Part shown: in pieces, positions 34,558-61,884 of the stretch
How positions within the stretch are numbered: position 1 is the first letter of the stretch
Layout: every line of letters begins with the position of its first letter
NCBI GenBank assembly: GCA_028288405.1
Contig: JAQBNS010000104.1
Span: 1 to 64,000, forward strand
Reading direction: 5' to 3'
Origin: Chitinophagaceae bacterium
Lineage (GTDB): Bacteria > Bacteroidota > Bacteroidia > Cytophagales > Cytophagaceae
DNA length: 64,000 nt
Notes under the pieces: model-generated
What the model saw: only the letters and a program-made list of their open reading frames with translations
The model's database searches: none
What the model was told of the DNA's origin: nothing
Program-made: the position numbers and the translations under genes

Positions 34558-35025
34558 TTATTTTTTCGATTCCCACTTTTTTAATAGAAAAGGAATTTCT
34601 GCATTTAGAAATTCAAGAAAAGAAATCATTTCTGTTAAGGTATTGTTAAACTCCTTCGTTGACTTTGGACGTTGTTTATTGATCTCTTTGAGCAAGGGGC
34701 CGATAGAGGTCATTTGCGACATATTCTGCAACATGTCAACTTTCCAGTTTAGAATTTTAGCGCGGAAGTAACGCTTACGATCGCCGGGCCGTGTAATATA
34801 TTCCAGCCGATTGGCCGTAAGCAGTAAATTAATCGCTCCGCTGGTAGCACTTTTACTAATCCCCAGCGTATGGAGAATCTCTTCAAAAGTGAGTTCTGTT
34901 TGATCCGAAACGATCATCAATGCCATGACACGGCAGGCTGCTGGCTGCATACCTGATTTTTCATAAAAAACACCCAGTTTTTCAACCAATTCTTTCTGGG
35001 CCTGTGTAATCTTGAATTCTGCCAT
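34558..35025 (-). CDS. GbsR/MarR family transcription regulator (copy 1)
   Basis: A 155-residue winged-helix regulator. EEILHTLGISKSATSGAINLL is the recognition region and RPGDRKRYFRAKI the wing, as in GbsR-type MarR proteins. It is clearly paralogous to the divergent gene at 35218 throughout its length. Its start lies next to a long inverted repeat at 35135-35176. It probably controls the adjacent efflux operon, itself, or both. Confidence 0.85.
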   Translation of the reverse strand: MAEFKITQAQKELVEKLGVFYEKSGMQPAACRVMALMIVSDQTELTFEEILHTLGISKSATSGAINLLLTANRLEYITRPGDRKRYFRAKILNWKVDMLQNMSQMTSIGPLLKEINKQRPKSTKEFNNTLTEMISFLEFLNAEIPFLLKKWESKK

Positions 35026-35134: not shown

Positions 35135-35187
35135 AATATTTATTTAGTTCATAATTTTCAGAACCAAATAAATATTTTGTAAGTTTG
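35135..35187. promoter_or_regulatory. Operator-like inverted repeat and -7 box of the efflux operon
   Basis: AATATTTATTTAGTTC (35135-35150) faces GAACCAAATAAATATT (35161-35176), 15 of 16 positions complementary, across a 10-base spacer. TAAGTTTG at 35180-35187 matches the -7 consensus TAnnTTTG, so the right arm covers the -33 region. Binding here by a GbsR paralogue should repress the operon (inference). The box also shows that a TTG at 35185 is not a start codon. Confidence 0.65.
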
Positions 35188-35217
35188 ATACAATATAACT
35201 CGATAACATACGACCAT

Positions 35218-35685
35218 ATGAATGTGACAGCAGCACAAAAACGTTTAATCGAAAAATTGGGAGTCTTTTTTGAAGGACATGGAGAGACTCCGGCAGAGGC
35301 AAGAATCGTAGGATTGTTTATGGTGGCCGACCAATTGGAATGGACGCTGGAAGAGATACAACAGACTTTAGGCATCAGTAAAAGCGCTGCGAATAATGCC
35401 ATTAATATACTGCTGTTAAAACAGCAAGTAGAATATGTCACCAAACCAGGTGACCGGAAAAAATACTACAAATCTAAAATTGAGCAATGGTTGACTCATG
35501 TTGAGGAACACTTGGAAAAAGCGCTCGAAGTAAGGCTCCTTATGCGAGAGGCATTAGAGCAACGTACAAAAGCAACTAAGGAATATAATGGAGCGCTCAA
35601 AGAGATGATTGATTTTATGGAGTTTATGCTCTCTCATCATCACGAATTGTTTAATAAGTGGAAGAAGTTAAAAGGAAAAGCTTAA
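35218..35685 (+). CDS. GbsR/MarR family transcription regulator (copy 2)
   Basis: About 155 residues from ATG at 35218. Helix-turn-helix EEIQQTLGISKSAANNAINIL and wing KPGDRKKYYKSKI match copy 1 closely. It is the first gene of the TolC-MFP-RND transcription unit (41 bases before the TolC-like gene) and probably its local repressor. The ligand is unknown. Confidence 0.87.
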   Translation: MNVTAAQKRLIEKLGVFFEGHGETPAEARIVGLFMVADQLEWTLEEIQQTLGISKSAANNAINILLLKQQVEYVTKPGDRKKYYKSKIEQWLTHVEEHLEKALEVRLLMREALEQRTKATKEYNGALKEMIDFMEFMLSHHHELFNKWKKLKGKA

Positions 35686-41494: not shown

Positions 41495-42754
41495 ATGTCA
41501 ACCGTTTCCAGTAAACCCATTGTTCACGAAGACTGGACATCAGTATTCATTGGCTTTTTGATTTTGTGTTTCTCCTTGTCGGGATTCATCATCGACGCAC
41601 CAACCTATAATTGGAAAAATTCAGAGGAGGTGCTGACCAAGGTATTTTCGGGTGCTAACCGGATTAAATTACTTACGCAGTTTGTCTACGTGTATGTATT
41701 GAGTGCCATTGCTGTATACCTCATTGGCAAGCAGCTCAAAAATTTCCTGATCGTTTTTCCTGGCGTATATGTATTGACAACGGCCGCCCTCTTGATTGCA
41801 GGTAATAGTTTTATAAAAGGCATTAATCTGGAAGCGGTGATTTTTAGTTTGCTCATTGGATTAATTATTGGCAATGCATTCAAGTTGCCGGATTGGTTCC
41901 GTCAGGCATTGACCACAGAGTTTTTTGTAAAGACAGGATTGGTTTTATTGGGTACAACCGTTATCTTCTCAGACATCTTAAAGGCCGGATCACTTGGATT
42001 GGTGCAGGCTCTGGTAGTTGTGCTATCAGTTTGGTACTTTGCTTTTTGGGTATGTAAAAAATTAAAAGTAGACGAGGAGTTGACACTCATGATTTCCAGC
42101 GCGGTTTCTATTTGCGGAGTATCAGCGGCTATTGCCACATCAGGTGCTATTAATGGAGATGCTAAAAAATTGTCCTATGTGATATCTATGGTACTGATTA
42201 CCGCTATTCCCATGATGATCGGAATGCCTTATGCGGCAGCTTATCTTGGCCTTTCGCAAGAAGTAACAGGCGCTTGGTTGGGTGGAAGTATCGATACATC
42301 AGGAGCTGTAGTGGCCTCCGGTACGTTGGTGGGGGAAACAGCTCTAAAAATTAGTACGATTGTAAAGTTTTCTCAAAATGTGTTGTTAGGGATTGCAGCT
42401 TTTGCCATTAGTGTTTATTGGACATTAAATAGAAAAGGAGACCATGCAGAGCAAAAAGAAAAGCCATCCTTATTAGTGATTTGGCAAAGGTTTCCAAAGT
42501 TCGTACTGGGCTTTATTGCAGCCTCTCTGTTATTTTCATTTGCCCTCTCTTCGGATGTTATGGAAGAAGTAAAAGGGAGCTTGAAAAATCTTCAAACGCT
42601 CTGGTTTGTATTGGCATTTACCAGCATTGGTTTGGAAACAAATTTCGCAGATCTGTTTAATGCAAACAGTAAAAAACCTCTGTATGCGTTTTTAATTGCG
42701 CAAACTTTTAACATTATCATAACATTGATATTAGCTTATCTGTTGTTTTCATAA
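41495..42754 (+). CDS. YeiH-like putative sulfate/anion exporter
   Basis: A 419-residue integral membrane protein with about 11 helices, matching the UPF0324/YeiH family annotated as putative sulfate exporters. The family core ISSAVSICGVSAAIATSGAI and AWLGGSIDTSGAVVASGTLVG is visible, with SIGLETNF near the end. The transported ion is not proven for the family. It lies between the RND terminator and the palindrome-controlled zinc-ribbon gene, next to sulfatase-related genes, which fits an anion role. Confidence 0.82.
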   Translation: MSTVSSKPIVHEDWTSVFIGFLILCFSLSGFIIDAPTYNWKNSEEVLTKVFSGANRIKLLTQFVYVYVLSAIAVYLIGKQLKNFLIVFPGVYVLTTAALLIAGNSFIKGINLEAVIFSLLIGLIIGNAFKLPDWFRQALTTEFFVKTGLVLLGTTVIFSDILKAGSLGLVQALVVVLSVWYFAFWVCKKLKVDEELTLMISSAVSICGVSAAIATSGAINGDAKKLSYVISMVLITAIPMMIGMPYAAAYLGLSQEVTGAWLGGSIDTSGAVVASGTLVGETALKISTIVKFSQNVLLGIAAFAISVYWTLNRKGDHAEQKEKPSLLVIWQRFPKFVLGFIAASLLFSFALSSDVMEEVKGSLKNLQTLWFVLAFTSIGLETNFADLFNANSKKPLYAFLIAQTFNIIITLILAYLLFS

Positions 42755-42848
42755 CCCCTATGCACTCGGTCTTAAACGGTTAAAACCCTTTATTTGGGGC
42801 TCAAAAGCGATAATTTTTTGAATTTGGGATTTATACCACCAATAAACT

Positions 42849-42889
42849 CTACTAATCCTATAGAATTAATAGTATATTGATTATGTTTG
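42849..42889 (+). promoter_or_regulatory. Palindrome site A and -7 box of the zinc-ribbon gene
   Basis: CTACTAATCC-TATA-GAATTAATAG (42849-42872) is a 24-bp near-palindrome. The -7 box TATGTTTG (42882-42889) starts nine bases later, so the palindrome covers the -33 region. The encapsulin promoter at 58089 has the same arrangement. Confidence 0.75.
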
Positions 42890-42917: not shown

Positions 42918-43421
42918 ATGAGCACACAAGGAGTAACATACGTATATAAGAACGAAGAGCTGTCGATAGAGGCTTTTAAGGAGTATCGTTTAAATAAAGG
43001 GGTGGTTTGTAAAAAATGTGGATCGCAACATCATTATTGGTTAATGTCAAAACAACAATTTCAATGCGGAGACTGCCGCTTTAGAACGACATTACGCAGC
43101 GGAACTGTTTTGCAAGGAAGTAAATTGCCTTACTCTTATTTTTTCATTGCGGTCAATTTGTTGTCCAGACAAGGTAATAGATTGACGTTGGATGAATTTC
43201 AAAAACATACCGGACATAAGTATTACGAACCGTTATGGGAGTTTTTGAATAAGCTAAAAATAAACCTGGATGAGCAAGAGCGTAGTTTGATATTAGCTAC
43301 TTACAGTACAATCTTAAGCAAACGTTTGCGTGTGAGCTCTGTTACAGATAATACCTTTCCTTTGATACAAGAGAGACAATTGATTCAGAGCGTAGAGTTG
43401 GAAAGAGTAGCAGCCAGATAA
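42918..43421 (+). CDS. Zinc-ribbon protein related to the N-terminus of IS1595 transposases
   Basis: A 167-residue protein. Cys31, Cys34, Cys50 and Cys53 form a C4 zinc ribbon (VVCKKCGSQ...FQCGDCRFR), followed by TTLRSGTVLQGSKLPYSYFF, the segment typical of the zinc-ribbon part of IS1595-family transposases. The DDE catalytic domain is completely absent and the C-terminus is helical. No terminal inverted repeats of a complete element were found, and it has its own promoter and 24-bp palindrome. It is probably a domesticated DNA-binding protein, possibly a regulator; a degraded transposase is the alternative. Confidence 0.75.
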   Translation: MSTQGVTYVYKNEELSIEAFKEYRLNKGVVCKKCGSQHHYWLMSKQQFQCGDCRFRTTLRSGTVLQGSKLPYSYFFIAVNLLSRQGNRLTLDEFQKHTGHKYYEPLWEFLNKLKINLDEQERSLILATYSTILSKRLRVSSVTDNTFPLIQERQLIQSVELERVAAR

Positions 43422-43434
43422 ATTATTGAATTGC

Positions 43435-43510
43435 TATGAGACCCCGTGGATCGATAAATTCTAAAATGTGGTGGACAATGTTTAGAGTTTAGAAATCTGC
43501 GGGTCTCATA
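43435..43510. repeat. 10-bp inverted repeat flanking 56 bases
   Basis: TATGAGACCC (43435-43444) and GGGTCTCATA (43501-43510) are exact complements just after the zinc-ribbon gene. They could be an RNA stem or a relic of a tiny mobile element. Confidence 0.5.
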
Positions 43511-43534: not shown

Positions 43535-43581
43535 GAGAAAGAGAAAGAGAAAGAGGCAACCTCTTTCTCTTTCTCTTTCTG
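43535..43581. terminator. Polypurine/polypyrimidine hairpin between convergent genes
   Basis: GAAAGA-type repeats on the left pair with CTCTTTCTCTTTCTCTTTCT on the right over about 21 bases, around a 3-base loop, followed by GTTTTT. It probably terminates the zinc-ribbon gene and the opposing FGE gene. A similar hairpin is at 16672-16705. Confidence 0.75.
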
Positions 43582-43584
43582 TTT

Positions 43585-44730
43585 TTACTTACCACTTGTT
43601 TTCACGCACCTGAATCCCACATGTTCCATTCCACTATCCTCTGTACTCTTCATTCTGCGGGCAGCACGGTAACCCGAACAATAGCTGTCGTTGCATAAGA
43701 AAGATCCGCCGCGCATCACTCTTTTTTGTGCATAGGGTTCTTGTGGATCAAAACTTTTTTCCGGACCTGTGGGATTAGCAACGCCTTTAGGATGTTCATT
43801 GAGCAATGTGGTGTAGTAACTATTGTCGTAATAATCAGAACACCATTCCCAGACGTTGCCGGACATGTCAAACAAACCGTAACCATTGGCGGGGAAAGAT
43901 TTTACAGGAGCTGTAAAATAGAATCTATCTTCCTCTGTGTTTTTATTCGGGAAAGTTCCTTGCCAATAATTCGCTTTACTTTTATTGACTGCTTCATCCC
44001 CCCAGGGATAGATGTTATTTTTCAATCCACCTCTGGCTGCGAATTCCCATTCGGCTTCTGTTGGCAATCTTTTGTTTGCCCATTTGCAATAGGCTTGTGC
44101 ATCGTACCAGGAAATGTGAACAACCGGATAATTTTCTTTGCCTTTGATGCCGCTGCCGGGGCCGTGCGGGTGTTTCCAATTGGCGCCTTCTTTCCAACTC
44201 CACCAGCTGCTGTAATCTTCCAGTGAAACGGTTTGTATGGGTGCACTGAATACGAGAGAAGCGGGTACGAGTAAGCTTTCATCCGGCTTGGGTGTACCTG
44301 GTTCGACTTGGGTTTTCAATATTTCCCAATCCGGTTTTTTTTCGGCAGTGGTCACGTAACCGGTTGCTTTTACAAATTCTTCAAATTGTGCATTCGTTAC
44401 TTCCGTAGCATCGATCCAATAGCCATTGACGGTTACTTTATGTTTTGGATATTCGTCTTCGGAAGCTTGTTTGTTGTCTGCACCCATGTCAAAGGAACCG
44501 CCTGCAATCCATACCATACCTGCATGTGACGTATCTCCGCTGCTTTGAACGGTACTGTCTTTTGTAACAGTACTGAACCGTGAAGGAAGTTTGGAAGTGC
44601 AGCACATTTCTTTTTTAGAAGAATCAACAGCAAGAGAATCGGTCTGTGCTGTCTCTTCGGGTTTTGATTCGCAGCTGTAGAGAACAGCGGAAGCGAGAAG
44701 TAAGGAGGCAATTATTTTTATTATGGACAT
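43585..44730 (-). CDS. Exported formylglycine-generating enzyme (sulfatase-activating) lipoprotein
   Basis: A 381-residue SUMF1/FGE-family protein with a lipoprotein signal, IASLLLASAVLYSC, so it should act outside the cytoplasm. FGE oxidises a sulfatase active-site cysteine to formylglycine. The FGE fold is seen from MVWIAGGSFDMGADN (about residue 73), through LPTEAEWEFAARGG and NVWEWCSDYYD. The two catalytic copper-binding cysteines are present, C346 and C351, in RGGSFLCNDSYCSGYRAARR, ending with HVGFRCVKT. Non-catalytic relatives such as gliding proteins lack this pair. It is 84 bases downstream of the GH43-like gene and probably in its operon. Confidence 0.88.
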   Translation of the reverse strand: MSIIKIIASLLLASAVLYSCESKPEETAQTDSLAVDSSKKEMCCTSKLPSRFSTVTKDSTVQSSGDTSHAGMVWIAGGSFDMGADNKQASEDEYPKHKVTVNGYWIDATEVTNAQFEEFVKATGYVTTAEKKPDWEILKTQVEPGTPKPDESLLVPASLVFSAPIQTVSLEDYSSWWSWKEGANWKHPHGPGSGIKGKENYPVVHISWYDAQAYCKWANKRLPTEAEWEFAARGGLKNNIYPWGDEAVNKSKANYWQGTFPNKNTEEDRFYFTAPVKSFPANGYGLFDMSGNVWEWCSDYYDNSYYTTLLNEHPKGVANPTGPEKSFDPQEPYAQKRVMRGGSFLCNDSYCSGYRAARRMKSTEDSGMEHVGFRCVKTSGK

Positions 44731-45978: not shown

Positions 45979-46002
45979 CTACTAATTCTATAGGCAAAGT
46001 AA
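45979..46002. promoter_or_regulatory. Palindrome site B, one half degenerate
   Basis: CTACTAATTC-TATA-GGCAAAGTAA. The left half and centre (15 bases including the next G) match site C at 14 positions and site A at 14, while the right half is poor. It lies between the divergent GH43-like and binding-protein genes. Confidence 0.55.
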
Positions 46003-46311: not shown

Positions 46312-46335
46312 CTACTAATCCGATAGGAATTATAG
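46312..46335. promoter_or_regulatory. Palindrome site D
   Basis: CTACTAATCC-GATA-GGAATTATAG, an imperfect 24-bp palindrome of the same family as sites A and C. It ends 20 bases before the ATG at 46356, with AGGAGG in between, so it lies within the predicted leader or controls a second, closer promoter. Confidence 0.6.
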
Positions 46336-46355: not shown

Positions 46356-47288
46356 ATGAAAAAGATACTATTCTTCCTTACGCTACTTGTATCATCGCTG
46401 GTTTCTTTGCCATCTTTCGCGCAGGCTGCATCCAATAGCATTACGGTATCGGGTTCTCGCTTTACCTATGATCTCTTGCGTCAATGGATACAGGATTTTA
46501 ATGAAGAGAATCCTGATGCAGTCATTCAGATTGTACCCAGAGAAACACCTTTTGCAGAACAAGCCAATCTGGTTATCAATGCACACAACCTGGATACCGT
46601 AGAGATTAGAGAAGGGTATGAATACATCAAACTTGGTCGTTATGTCATTCTTCCCATTGCGAATGAACAGAATACACTGGCGAGATTGTACAAGAACAAA
46701 CCCATCAGGCAAAAAGAGTTGAAGGAATTGTATTTCGATCCATTTCAGGAAGAAGTGGAGTCGTCAGAAATTAAAAGAGTAAAAAAGCAAAGCATACAAC
46801 TCTATACCCGTCAACGCATCGCTTGTGCCAATACGGCATTTGCAGCATATTACGGTTTCAAAGCGAAAGATATAAAAGGTAGACCTATTGCGGGAGAAGA
46901 CAAACATTTGTTATATGCCATTGCAAAAGATACGTCAGGCGTAACTTATAGCATACCGAGTATCTTTTACGATTTGCAGACGAGGAAGTTGAAGAAGGGA
47001 ATCAGCATTTTGAAAACCGAAAGTCTGGCCAATGCTGTTGCAACAGAAAAATTAGATCTCTCTAATTTGGATTCGTTAACAACTTATTTGGAAAAGAATG
47101 TAACATCGGCGGATTTTCCTGTTACTTATTTTCACATCTCCTTGAAAAAAGATGTGCCGGAAAATTCTATCGAACGGAAATTCTTACACTATATCTTGAC
47201 AAAAGGTCAGACGCGCTTGCATCAGTTTGGTTTTTTGAATCCGGAAGAACCTGTAAGAGCCCAAAGTATTCAACTGATCAGCTTCTGA
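46356..47288 (+). CDS. PstS-like periplasmic substrate-binding protein
   Basis: A 310-residue protein with a signal peptide (residues 1-22, MKKILFFLTLLVSSLVSLPSFA). SITVSGSRFTYDLLRQWIQDF matches the opening of PstS-like solute-binding domains, and KYVILPIANEQNTLARLYKN with a linker and IPSIFYDLQT fit the two-lobe fold. No ABC permease or ATPase gene is adjacent, so the ligand is unknown; phosphate, sulfate or another anion is possible. Good AGGAGG Shine-Dalgarno at 46346-46351, unusual for this window. Palindrome site D and a long structured leader lie directly upstream. Confidence 0.78.
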   Translation: MKKILFFLTLLVSSLVSLPSFAQAASNSITVSGSRFTYDLLRQWIQDFNEENPDAVIQIVPRETPFAEQANLVINAHNLDTVEIREGYEYIKLGRYVILPIANEQNTLARLYKNKPIRQKELKELYFDPFQEEVESSEIKRVKKQSIQLYTRQRIACANTAFAAYYGFKAKDIKGRPIAGEDKHLLYAIAKDTSGVTYSIPSIFYDLQTRKLKKGISILKTESLANAVATEKLDLSNLDSLTTYLEKNVTSADFPVTYFHISLKKDVPENSIERKFLHYILTKGQTRLHQFGFLNPEEPVRAQSIQLISF

Positions 47289-58088: not shown

Positions 58089-58128
58089 CTATTAATTCTA
58101 TAGATTTAGTAGTATTTAACTACCTTTG
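58089..58128 (+). promoter_or_regulatory. Palindrome site C and -7 box of the encapsulin operon
   Basis: CTATTAATTC-TATA-GATTTAGTAG (58089-58112), with symmetry continuing outward as AAATA and TATTT. The -7 box TACCTTTG (58121-58128) begins eight bases later, so the palindrome occupies the -33 region. Transcription would start near 58135, 72 bases before the encapsulin ATG. Confidence 0.8.
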
Positions 58129-58206: not shown

Positions 58207-59127
58207 ATGTCTGAATTGAAAAACAAACAAACGGCGCTAGGAGATGTAGCTGCCAGGCAATTAGCCATCGCTACGCGTACCGTACCGCAAATGATCACCA
58301 TCACACCCCGTTGGTTGACACATTTGTTGAACTGGATTCCTGTAGAATCCGGCGTATACCGTCTCAATAAAGTAACGGAAGACACGAACGTTGAAGTAGA
58401 TTGTTCTGGTCGTGACGAACGCGAATTACCGCATACGTTTGTGAACTATGTAGAAAATCCGAGAGAGTATAATTTGAGTGCGGTAAATACCGTATTGGAT
58501 GTGCACACACGTGTATCGGATTTGTACAGCAAACCTTACAATCAGATCAGCGAACAATTGCGTCTGACGATTGAAAGCATCAAGGAACGTCAGGAAAGTG
58601 AGTTGATCAATAATAAAGAATACGGTTTGTTAGCAAGCATCGCTCCGTCACAGCGCATCAAAACACGCACAGGTGCTCCGACTCCGGATGACCTGGATGC
58701 TTTGATCACCAAAGTATGGAAAGAGCCGGGTTTCTTTTTATTGCATCCCTTAGCAATTGCCGCTTTCGGCCGTGAGTGTACGCGTAAAGGTGTACCTCCT
58801 CCAACCGTTTCTTTGTTCGGTTCACAATTCATTACCTGGAGAGGCATTCCTTTGATTCCTTCCGACAAAGTACCGATTGTAAAGGGCAAATCTTCTATTC
58901 TATTGCTTCGCACAGGAGAAAGCCGTCAAGGTGTTGTAGGTCTTTACCAGCCGGGTCTTCCGGGAGAACAGTCTCCGGGATTATCCGTTCGTTTCATGGG
59001 CATCAACGATAAAGCCATCGCTTCTTACCTGGTCTCTCTGTATTGTTCTCTGGCTGTTTTAGTAGACGATGCCATCGCAGTATTGGAAGATGTAGACGTA
59101 GAAAAGTATCATGAGTACAAATATTAA
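58207..59127 (+). CDS. Family 2A encapsulin shell protein (SrpI-like)
   Basis: A 306-residue shell protein with the HK97-type fold of family 2A encapsulins, whose cyanobacterial member SrpI forms a nanocompartment around a cysteine desulfurase. Strong signatures are ALGDVAARQLAIATRTVPQM, TPRWLTHLLNWIPVESGVYR, STVLDVHTRVSDLY-like NTVLDVHTRVSDLYSKPYNQ, APTPDDLDALI, PPPTVSLFGSQFITWRGIPL and GEQSPGLSVRFMGI. Length fits the family. Its 3' end overlaps the desulfurase gene by 17 bases, indicating translational coupling. The promoter carries a 24-bp palindrome. Earlier database names such as major membrane protein I would be misleading. Confidence 0.94.
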   Translation: MSELKNKQTALGDVAARQLAIATRTVPQMITITPRWLTHLLNWIPVESGVYRLNKVTEDTNVEVDCSGRDERELPHTFVNYVENPREYNLSAVNTVLDVHTRVSDLYSKPYNQISEQLRLTIESIKERQESELINNKEYGLLASIAPSQRIKTRTGAPTPDDLDALITKVWKEPGFFLLHPLAIAAFGRECTRKGVPPPTVSLFGSQFITWRGIPLIPSDKVPIVKGKSSILLLRTGESRQGVVGLYQPGLPGEQSPGLSVRFMGINDKAIASYLVSLYCSLAVLVDDAIAVLEDVDVEKYHEYKY

Positions 59128-60976
59128 TCAAAACGGGTTGCCTGATGTGTCTGCATTGGAACAACTGGCCAACGAGCTCTTCTCTGCGCTCCCTGGTGGT
59201 TTTCCGGCGCAAGGTATTTTTCCGCAACAAGTAGGAAAATTGCAACACTACGATGCGTTGGGAAATCAGCAAGGTCCGTTTAATGTCAACGAACCACAAA
59301 CGAGTTTGCCGGATCCTCATTTTATAGAAGGTCAGGTACCTAAGTCTGTAGCGGGAAGTGGCGTTTCTCCTTCTGCGGTGACGCAAGGAAATGTATTTCA
59401 TTTGGGAGATCATCATTTACCAAGTTCAGAGCAAGCGGGCAGTGGCCGTATCCCGCAATCGTTGGGTGGAACGGGTATTTCTCCTTCTGTTGTGCAAAAA
59501 GATTTTGCACGCGAAGAAATTCCTTATGCTTCCGAACAGCCGTTTGATCTGGGTGAAATCAATGCACTAGGCTCGCTGAGTTCTTTTCATTCGATTCCTC
59601 AAATTCCCATTTCACTACCTTCTGGTCTGGGAGATGCGCAGTATTATTTTATTACCGGTAATCCTGCTGCTCAATTTGGTCACGAGCATTTCCAGCCTTC
59701 TGTGAAGCCGTTCTCCAATGAAAGCCAACACGGCATCGTTTCAAAACCGTCTATTGATTTCAATCTCGTGAAGAAAGATTTTCCTATTCTTCAGGAGCGT
59801 GTCAACGGTCGTCCTTTGATTTGGCTGGACAATGCGGCAACGACACAGAAACCGAAATCGGTGATTGATCGGATCACGTATTTTTACGAGCATGAAAACT
59901 CTAACATCCACCGCGCAGCGCATGAATTGGCCGCACGCGCAACGGATGCTTACGAAGGTGCCCGTCAAAAAGTACAAACGTTTATCAATGCTGCTTCCAT
60001 TAATGAAATTGTGTTTGTTCGCGGAACGACTGAAGCCATTAACCTTGTGGCTAAAAGTTGGGGAGAACAGAACCTGCGTGCCGGTGACGAAATCATCATC
60101 AGTCACCTGGAACACCACGCCAACATTGTTCCCTGGCAACAGCTGGCTGCTAAGAAAGACTTGAAAATAAAAGTCATTCCTGTAGACGATGACGGACAAG
60201 TGATATTGGACGAATATGCCAAGCTATTAACACCAAGAACAAAACTGGTTTCATTTACACAGGTATCGAATGCATTAGGTACCATCACTCCTGCCAAGCA
60301 AATGGTAGCGATGGGGCAGCAAGCCGGTGCGAAAGTATTGGTGGATGGTGCTCAATCCGTTTCTCACTTGCGTGCCGATGTGCGTGATTTGAATTGTGAT
60401 TGGTTTGTGTTCTCCGGACATAAAGTATTTGGCCCTACCGGTATCGGCGTGTTGTATGGCAAAGAAGATTTGCTCAATGAGACACAACCCTGGCAGGGCG
60501 GTGGAAACATGATCAAAGATGTAACCTTCGAACATACGCAGTACCACGATGCTCCCGGACGTTTTGAGGCGGGTACCGGAAACATTGCAGATGCCGTAGG
60601 TTTAGGAGCAGCTATAGATTATGTCAATCGTTACGGTATAGATGCCATCAATCAATACGAGCATTACTTATTAGTGTATGCTACGCGTTTGATGAAAGAT
60701 GTTCCTGGTTTGCGACTGATCGGTACCGCAAAAGATAAAGCCAGCGTTTTGTCTTTTGTACTCGAAGGTTTCCGTACGGAAGAAGTGGGTGCTGCCTTGA
60801 ATCAAAATGGCATCGCTGTACGTTCTGGTCATCACTGCGCCCAACCTATCCTGAGACGCTTTGGTTTGGAAGCTACGGTAAGGCCTTCTTTGGCTTTCTA
60901 CAATACTTGTCAGGATATCGATGTATTGGTAGATACACTTCACCGATTGAAAAAAGGTCATTTGAAAGTGAAATAA
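59111..60976 (+). CDS. Cysteine desulfurase (SufS-like) with N-terminal encapsulin cargo region
   Basis: A 621-residue PLP enzyme. The catalytic core starts near residue 217 and has normal SufS length; PLP-lysine K438 is in SGHKVFGPTGIG and catalytic Cys576 in SGHHCAQPILRR. The first 215 residues are rich in Gly, Pro, Ser and Gln and predicted disordered. They contain a helical motif, VSALEQLANELFSALPGG (13-30), two related repeats, PKSVAGSGVSPSAV (77-90) and PQSLGGTGISPSVV (115-128), and an aromatic motif, YYFITGNPAAQFG (178-190). In characterised family 2A systems such an extension directs cargo into the shell. It overlaps the encapsulin gene by 17 bases. It probably releases or stores sulfur inside the compartment. 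Confidence 0.94.
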   Translation: MSTNINQNGLPDVSALEQLANELFSALPGGFPAQGIFPQQVGKLQHYDALGNQQGPFNVNEPQTSLPDPHFIEGQVPKSVAGSGVSPSAVTQGNVFHLGDHHLPSSEQAGSGRIPQSLGGTGISPSVVQKDFAREEIPYASEQPFDLGEINALGSLSSFHSIPQIPISLPSGLGDAQYYFITGNPAAQFGHEHFQPSVKPFSNESQHGIVSKPSIDFNLVKKDFPILQERVNGRPLIWLDNAATTQKPKSVIDRITYFYEHENSNIHRAAHELAARATDAYEGARQKVQTFINAASINEIVFVRGTTEAINLVAKSWGEQNLRAGDEIIISHLEHHANIVPWQQLAAKKDLKIKVIPVDDDGQVILDEYAKLLTPRTKLVSFTQVSNALGTITPAKQMVAMGQQAGAKVLVDGAQSVSHLRADVRDLNCDWFVFSGHKVFGPTGIGVLYGKEDLLNETQPWQGGGNMIKDVTFEHTQYHDAPGRFEAGTGNIADAVGLGAAIDYVNRYGIDAINQYEHYLLVYATRLMKDVPGLRLIGTAKDKASVLSFVLEGFRTEEVGAALNQNGIAVRSGHHCAQPILRRFGLEATVRPSLAFYNTCQDIDVLVDTLHRLKKGHLKVK

Positions 60977-60988
60977 GATATAAGTATG

Positions 60989-61015
60989 AAGCTGTCCGTA
61001 TGACACGGACAGCTT
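60989..61015 (+). terminator. Hairpin between the desulfurase and serine acetyltransferase genes
   Basis: AAGCTGTCCGT and ACGGACAGCTT form an 11-base perfect stem around a 5-base loop, followed by ACCTATTTT. The weak T-run suggests partial termination, reducing expression of the downstream gene. Confidence 0.6.
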
Positions 61016-61044
61016 ACCTATTTTAATCATTGAATAGAAAGTCT

Positions 61045-61884
61045 ATGAAGAACCACAGCACACAACCACTCATCAATCTTCTCCGCAAAACGCACAGCGC
61101 GGAGTGGGAGGCGACACCTTCTTCACATGAGGCAATCGGTTGGCTGACGGATTTGGTTCAGTTTTTATTTCCAAGCAATCATTTGCCGAAACAATCTTCC
61201 TATGAAGGTATTCTGAAAAAAAATCAGATTGACCTGGAAAATATTTTGCTAAGTTACCTGGATCCTAAAACGACAGACATTGAAGCTATCGTCGAAGCAT
61301 TTTATGATTCCTTGGGTTCGATCTATGAAAACTTAAGACTGGATGCGAATAAAATTTACGAATACGATCCTGCAGCAACGAGTGTCAATGAAGTGATTGT
61401 TTCGTATCCTGGTTTTTATGCCATTACGGTTTACAGAATCGCGAATAGACTTACCCGCTTAAATGTACCGGTATTGCCGCGCATCATCAGTGAATACGCG
61501 CATGGTAAGACAGGTGTGGACATTCATCCTAACGCTACAATTGGTGTACCTTTCATGATTGATCATGCGACAGGTATCGTGATTGGAGCGACGAGTGTGA
61601 TCGGAAACAATGTGATTATTTACCAGGGTGTGACATTAGGTGCTTTGTTTGTAGCCAAGGAAATGTCAGACATCAAAAGACATCCAACAGTAAAAGACAA
61701 CGTGGTCATTTATGCACGTACAACAATTCTTGGTGGGAATACTGTCATTGGAGAGAACAGCATCATTGGAGGAAGTGTATTTTTAACAAAAAGTGTAGAA
61801 CCGAATTCGCAGGTATTCAATACACATCAACTGCGTATTACGTCGAAGACGTATACGTTGGACAGCACGGAGTTTAATGTGTGA
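61045..61884 (+). CDS. Serine O-acetyltransferase (EpsC/CysE type)
   Basis: About 279 residues from ATG at 61045; TTG at 61030 would add five. It makes O-acetylserine, the carbon acceptor for cysteine synthesis. The left-handed beta-helix of hexapeptide repeats is visible in GVDIHPNATIGVPFMIDHAT, GIVIGATSVIGNNVIIYQGV and NTVIGENSIIGGSVFLTKSV, with the catalytic histidines in DIHP and IDHATG. The long helical N-terminal half resembles the EpsC-like acetyltransferases known beside family 2A encapsulins. No cysteine synthase gene is in the window. Confidence 0.9.
   Translation: MKNHSTQPLINLLRKTHSAEWEATPSSHEAIGWLTDLVQFLFPSNHLPKQSSYEGILKKNQIDLENILLSYLDPKTTDIEAIVEAFYDSLGSIYENLRLDANKIYEYDPAATSVNEVIVSYPGFYAITVYRIANRLTRLNVPVLPRIISEYAHGKTGVDIHPNATIGVPFMIDHATGIVIGATSVIGNNVIIYQGVTLGALFVAKEMSDIKRHPTVKDNVVIYARTTILGGNTVIGENSIIGGSVFLTKSVEPNSQVFNTHQLRITSKTYTLDSTEFNV

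Follow-up and report, generated by a model that had tools for sequence, protein, structure and literature searches.

The question raised by this locus is whether a short gene that resembles part of a transposase is what remains of an insertion sequence or a gene that the host has kept, and, if kept, what its relation is to the encapsulin operon found in the same window, i.e., the whole stretch of 64,000 nucleotides that was analysed. The initial annotation had described it as holding only the C4 zinc-ribbon part of an IS1595-type transposase, and had proposed that it may be a member, or even the autoregulated controller, of the regulon to which the encapsulin operon belongs. The gene and its parts are:

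42918–43421, + strand: standalone zinc-ribbon and HTH protein derived from IS1595, 167 aa (open reading frame, PF12760, NF033547, orthologues and tree)
42951–43079, + strand: C4 zinc ribbon, residues 12–54 (Pfam), with Cys31, Cys34, Cys50 and Cys53 invariant
43119–43283, + strand: HTH-like segment corresponding to positions 2–56 of the IS1595 transposase model, with helices predicted at residues 72–88, 91–98 and 103–116

The ribbon was recognised by Pfam as Zn_ribbon_IS1595 (PF12760; E=1.1e-7, 32.2 bits versus a cut-off of 25.4), and this part of the earlier description stands. The word “only” is a little too restrictive, as the next helical segment of the transposase has been kept as well: residues 68–122 match positions 2–56 of the 215 in the NCBIfam model of IS1595 transposases (NF033547), a weak match of 20 bits against a cut-off of 75. 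When a full IS1595 transposase was compared with the whole window by tblastn, the only significant match was at this gene and covered query residues 7–114, and therefore no DDE domain is concealed on either side of it. Neither was one found by tblastn in the flanks of ten other orthologue loci, where a single alignment extended to transposase residue 154, within the orthologue's own reading frame. The claimed lack of element ends was also borne out: no IS1595-like end repeats were recognised at the gene, and the ends of its relatives (e.g., ATATGCTTATCC) were absent there. An inverted repeat just downstream was ruled out as an element end, since it is unique in the genome and shows RNA-like covariation. 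We conclude from these comparisons that the whole predicted N-terminal DNA-binding half of an IS1595 transposase (ribbon plus HTH) has been kept and the DDE half lost. The AlphaFold2 model of the protein (overall pLDDT 79) was confident for the ribbon and for helices at residues 72–88, 91–98, 103–116 and 119–143, with block-mean pLDDT mostly above 90 over helices 72–116. Alignment of this predicted structure with VIA-align returned mostly MarR-family winged-helix regulators, with a middling best Z of 7.1, while Foldseek gave nothing with E below 0.1 and a sequence search of solved structures gave no significant match. The modelled likeness to MarR-like winged helices is suggestive only and may reflect a common arrangement.

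In an order-level search of 390 genomes, standalone orthologues were found in 22, one copy in each, about 140–169 aa long and without a DDE domain; a class-wide search yielded none beyond the order. They were set apart by score, the standalone frames reaching at least 196 bits and the IS1595 transposases and fragments of the 390 genomes, often multi-copy, staying below 150 bits. A tree of 43 proteins included 21 of the 22 orthologues, and all 21 were split off from the real transposases by one branch (support 100/100); a single origin of the standalone gene would be the simplest reading. The nearest IS1595 transposases are about 46–47% identical to the protein over about 100 residues. Within the window genus, dN/dS was between 0.025 and 0.08 for the whole gene and between 0.009 and 0.037 for residues 1–117 where computable, values that are rough because synonymous changes are close to saturation. 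An apparent frameshift, close to the start, was seen in just one orthologue (L012, a gene also covered by locus L035). The gene neighbourhood is kept within the window genus and in genus g6, and SrpI, the encapsulin shell gene, is adjacent in five genomes of genus g59, while the wider surroundings differ. Homologues occurring only as scattered IS remnants, which would have spoken for debris, are contradicted by a single-copy clade under purifying selection; since the orthologues are single-copy, lack a DDE domain, form one clade and have these dN/dS values, the gene is not IS debris. Sequence comparison thus shows a domesticated IS1595 transposase, which several families of the order carry as a host gene present once per genome. 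Its immediate neighbours are:

41495–42754, + strand: YeiH-family putative sulfate exporter (PF03601, profile), the upstream neighbour in the window genus
43585–44730, − strand: FGE-sulfatase (sulfatase-modifying factor domain) protein (profile), the convergent neighbour

Elsewhere in the window there are two divergent genes (34558–35025 and 35185–35685) for similar regulators of some 160 aa, which by eye resemble MarR/GbsR; they adjoin an efflux-pump operon.

The second part of the question concerns the promoter of the gene and its connection with the encapsulin operon, for which the relevant features are:

42849–42872, no strand: 24-bp palindrome, site A, CTACTAATCCTATAGAATTAATAG, with its position conserved among the orthologue promoters of four genera
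42882–42889, + strand: Bacteroidota-type −7 promoter element TATGTTTG, just 3' of the site A palindrome
46312–46335, no strand: weaker palindrome, 20 bp 5' of the gene at 46356 and with 3 mismatches
58089–58112, no strand: palindrome with the motif of site A, called site C, 5' of the encapsulin operon
58207–59127, + strand: SrpI, family 2A encapsulin shell protein (NCBIfam and Pfam profiles)
59111–60976, + strand: family 2A encapsulin cargo cysteine desulfurase (profile match)
61030–61884, + strand: CysE-like serine acetyltransferase (profile, below the curated cut-off)

The operon at 58207–61884 is a clear member of the family 2A encapsulin/cysteine desulfurase system (SrpI), with shell and cargo both above cut-off (NF041162 and NF041166). 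The SrpI of Synechococcus is described as induced by sulfate starvation (PMC8049743). The gene was said to have its own promoter and operator, and besides the −7 element a palindrome was found that recurs in orthologues: the distance from site A to the start codon is identical in three other genomes of the window genus, and related versions of the palindrome occur in the orthologue promoters of genera g6, g8 and g59 (four genera counting g1). Site C shares an 18-bp exact match with site A on the opposite strand, in agreement with the claim of a palindrome common to both. A scan of the 3.95-Mb genome that tolerated up to three mismatches gave five occurrences of the motif and none of its reversed control. 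A class-wide extension of the palindrome was dropped, given that 106 of 395 genomes match but the reversed control also matches in many. The weaker palindrome listed above and another at 45979–46002 lie in the divergent region between genes 45873(−) and 46356(+); by eye the product of the latter resembles a periplasmic binding protein, with no Pfam or NCBIfam match, and at locus L031 its orthologue comes directly after the zinc-ribbon gene and its hairpin. We conclude that this promoter and the family 2A encapsulin operon share a putative sulfur-regulon operator, so that membership in the regulon, as proposed, is upheld by an operator conserved in orthologues of g1, g6, g8 and g59.

The link to the encapsulin also holds at the level of whole genomes. 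Of the 390 genomes, 22 carry SrpI, and 17 of these carry the standalone gene as well (Fisher p=3e-21, uncorrected for kinship; hypergeometric p=9e-5 when counted by genus). The two genes are adjacent and divergent in G148, G247, G295, G310 and G372, all of genus g59 and of a different family than the window, and 13–15 kb apart in two genomes of the window genus (G000 and G001). In G304 and G265 the SrpI shell genes (loci L102 and L103) are divergent and 62–63% identical; in these two genomes the zinc-ribbon gene adjoins an Rrf2 gene, with a TauE/SafE-like permease, by eye, farther on. Passages of encapsulin surveys retrieved by keyword make no mention of a dedicated regulator of the zinc-ribbon plus HTH kind.

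Which protein reads the palindrome is a separate matter. One proposal would be that the standalone protein is itself the autoregulated binder of the palindrome, both in front of its own gene and at the encapsulin promoter. In its favour is that four genera have the palindrome in the promoter of the standalone gene, as is the situation in g59, where matches with two mismatches or fewer are almost confined to that promoter, which fits self-control; the predicted wHTH-like fold would also suit a palindromic operator. The distribution of the remaining sites points elsewhere. The window-genus genomes, the g8 genome and G015 have one Rrf2 gene each. In G000, G002 and G003 the stretch separating this gene from a TonB-receptor gene contains palindromes, and in G014 it contains a weaker one. 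The order of the sole Rrf2 gene, palindromes and a TonB-dependent receptor gene can be seen at contig C132 of G000 (L123) and at loci L116, L124 and L127. The CymR and IscR profiles score the only Rrf2 of the window genome below their cut-offs; the cysteine pattern of the protein on C132 resembles that of Fe-S Rrf2 proteins by eye. Two genomes in which no standalone gene was detected have near-matches as well: that of G015 lies 5' of a TonB receptor gene and that of G357 precedes a redoxin-like gene, and a reading frame similar to the latter by eye ends directly upstream of SrpI in G334 and G360. In two distant genomes of family f74, palindrome-like sites stand upstream of FGE-sulfatase-like genes; at loci L175 and L176 of the same family such sites are conserved upstream of an apparent glutamate dehydrogenase gene. 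Rrf2 proteins are known to bind palindromes, and this family, which includes the sulfur and Fe-S regulators CymR and IscR and is not homologous to the standalone gene, would likely supply the reader. Because the palindrome lies beside Rrf2, upstream of sulfur genes and in genomes without the standalone gene, the single Rrf2-family regulator is the better candidate and most likely the protein that would read it. The standalone protein as controller of the palindrome, suggested at first, is not our first choice and we consider it rather unlikely.

A second box, of the TGGTA/TACCA type, is the candidate binding site of the standalone protein:

42834–42840, − strand: TACCACC box; orthologue promoters of several genera have it 5' of the palindrome and in unchanged orientation

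The hexamer TACCAC was present, in either orientation, in 14 of 21 orthologue promoter regions (1.5 expected under a Markov model), often in a single orientation upstream of the palindrome. In addition, all 11 SrpI promoters of g59 and g6 have the sequence [GC]TGG[TC]A at a distance of exactly 45 nt on the 5' side of their −7 element, a box and a spacing that were found after inspection of the data. The spacers of these promoters are 40% identical within g59, 26% between g59 and g6 and 87% within g6, and the information content of the box in the g59 SrpI set was reached by 0 of 2000 shuffles. Among genomes that lack the standalone gene, four SrpI promoters could be read and none has the box at this spacing; it is likewise missing from the SrpI promoters of the window genus (0 of 2) and from that of the g8 genome. 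The box was also predicted for G304 and G265, which have the gene and a divergent type of SrpI, but is absent from their SrpI promoters. We take it, with moderate confidence, as most likely a candidate binding site of the standalone protein, at a position that would suit an activator. A derivation of the GGTGGTA promoter box from transposon ends was discarded, the related IS ends being ATATGCTTATCC, CTGATTaTCCG or ATGTCCGCAnGTT; we make no claim of such an origin because there is just a loose likeness to TTACCA in one IS end.

The region after the gene holds the material for another explanation:

43435–43510, + strand: structured 3'-UTR RNA hairpin of 27 pairs with compensatory changes (folding and covariation)
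43537–43579, no strand: terminator-like hairpin after the RNA element (sequence)

The RNA element sits between the stop codon and the terminator-like hairpin and has z-scores from −5.4 to −7.2 in all four members of the genus (the window, L030, L031 and L032). Over its 27 pairs, 99% of the cells are paired and seven pairs have changed on both sides, which no shuffle equalled, while the loop AUGnGGUGGACAAUG, including GGUGGACAAUG, is nearly invariant. A DNA search found no second copy of the inverted repeat in the genome, Rfam gave for this region chance matches only, nearly all on an AGAAAG repeat, and an RNA model run on the orthologous loci of other genera and on the SrpI loci found no convincing match outside the window genus. 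Zinc ribbons can bind RNA, and the standalone gene could be a target of the sulfur regulon and nothing else, its product acting outside transcription, for instance by binding another protein or an RNA such as its own 3'-UTR hairpin. Regulon membership, which is the part with the best support, and this strong conserved hairpin in the window genus would agree with such a role. Against it stand the negative search for the hairpin near orthologues outside the genus, the retention of the DNA-binding half of the transposase, and the divergent adjacency to SrpI, which is typical of regulators; we judge it unlikely. A decaying, functionless IS remnant, for which the homology to IS1595 transposases and the truncated transposase fragments in other genomes of the order could be invoked, is very improbable given the single copy, the one clade and the strong purifying selection, together with the conserved promoter footprint, the recurring linkage and the single frameshifted orthologue.

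The explanation that we prefer is that the domesticated gene belongs to a sulfur regulon read by Rrf2 and acts as second-tier regulator of the encapsulin operon through the TGGTA/TACCA box, a composite reading that we believe has an even chance of being right. The contents of the regulon argue for it, with sites in the window genus upstream of O-acetylhomoserine sulfhydrylase and sulfatase genes, near a PhyH-type dioxygenase, and by the TonB receptor beside Rrf2. Under sulfur limitation Rrf2 would let go of the palindrome and the standalone protein would be made; it would then help to activate SrpI together with the cysteine desulfurase cargo and genes for sulfur scavenging, acting through the box that two genera have in their SrpI promoters 45 nt on the 5' side of the −7 element. 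Most likely the protein binds DNA and regulates, as a second tier, both the encapsulin operon and its own gene, and we infer that it is probably a transcription factor for the encapsulin compartment. A more specific version, in which the DNA-binding half of IS1595 has become a dedicated encapsulin activator under an Rrf2 sulfur switch and the conserved structured RNA at the end of its own mRNA may feed back on it, is only tentative.

The protein shares the zinc ribbon and the following helical segment with IS1595-family transposases (e.g., ISBbi1), from which it differs in having neither a DDE domain nor recognised ends, in being single-copy with a conserved host promoter, and in forming a separate clade. 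Eukaryotes offer well-known examples of domesticated transposases that work as transcription factors; in bacteria TldR is a regulator derived from TnpB, and to our knowledge few such cases have been documented there. The eukaryotic FHY3/FAR1 are transcription factors derived from transposases (PMC6000157). As in FHY3/FAR1 and TldR, it is the DNA-binding part of the transposase that has been kept, here with a putative regulatory role; unlike them, as they come from other transposase families, it is a zinc ribbon with an HTH tied to an encapsulin regulon. This gene, with its one clade, purifying selection and recurring encapsulin linkage, is thus a clean bacterial candidate for a regulator made from a domesticated transposase, and it may provide a handle, with named sites and genes, on how family 2A encapsulins are switched on.
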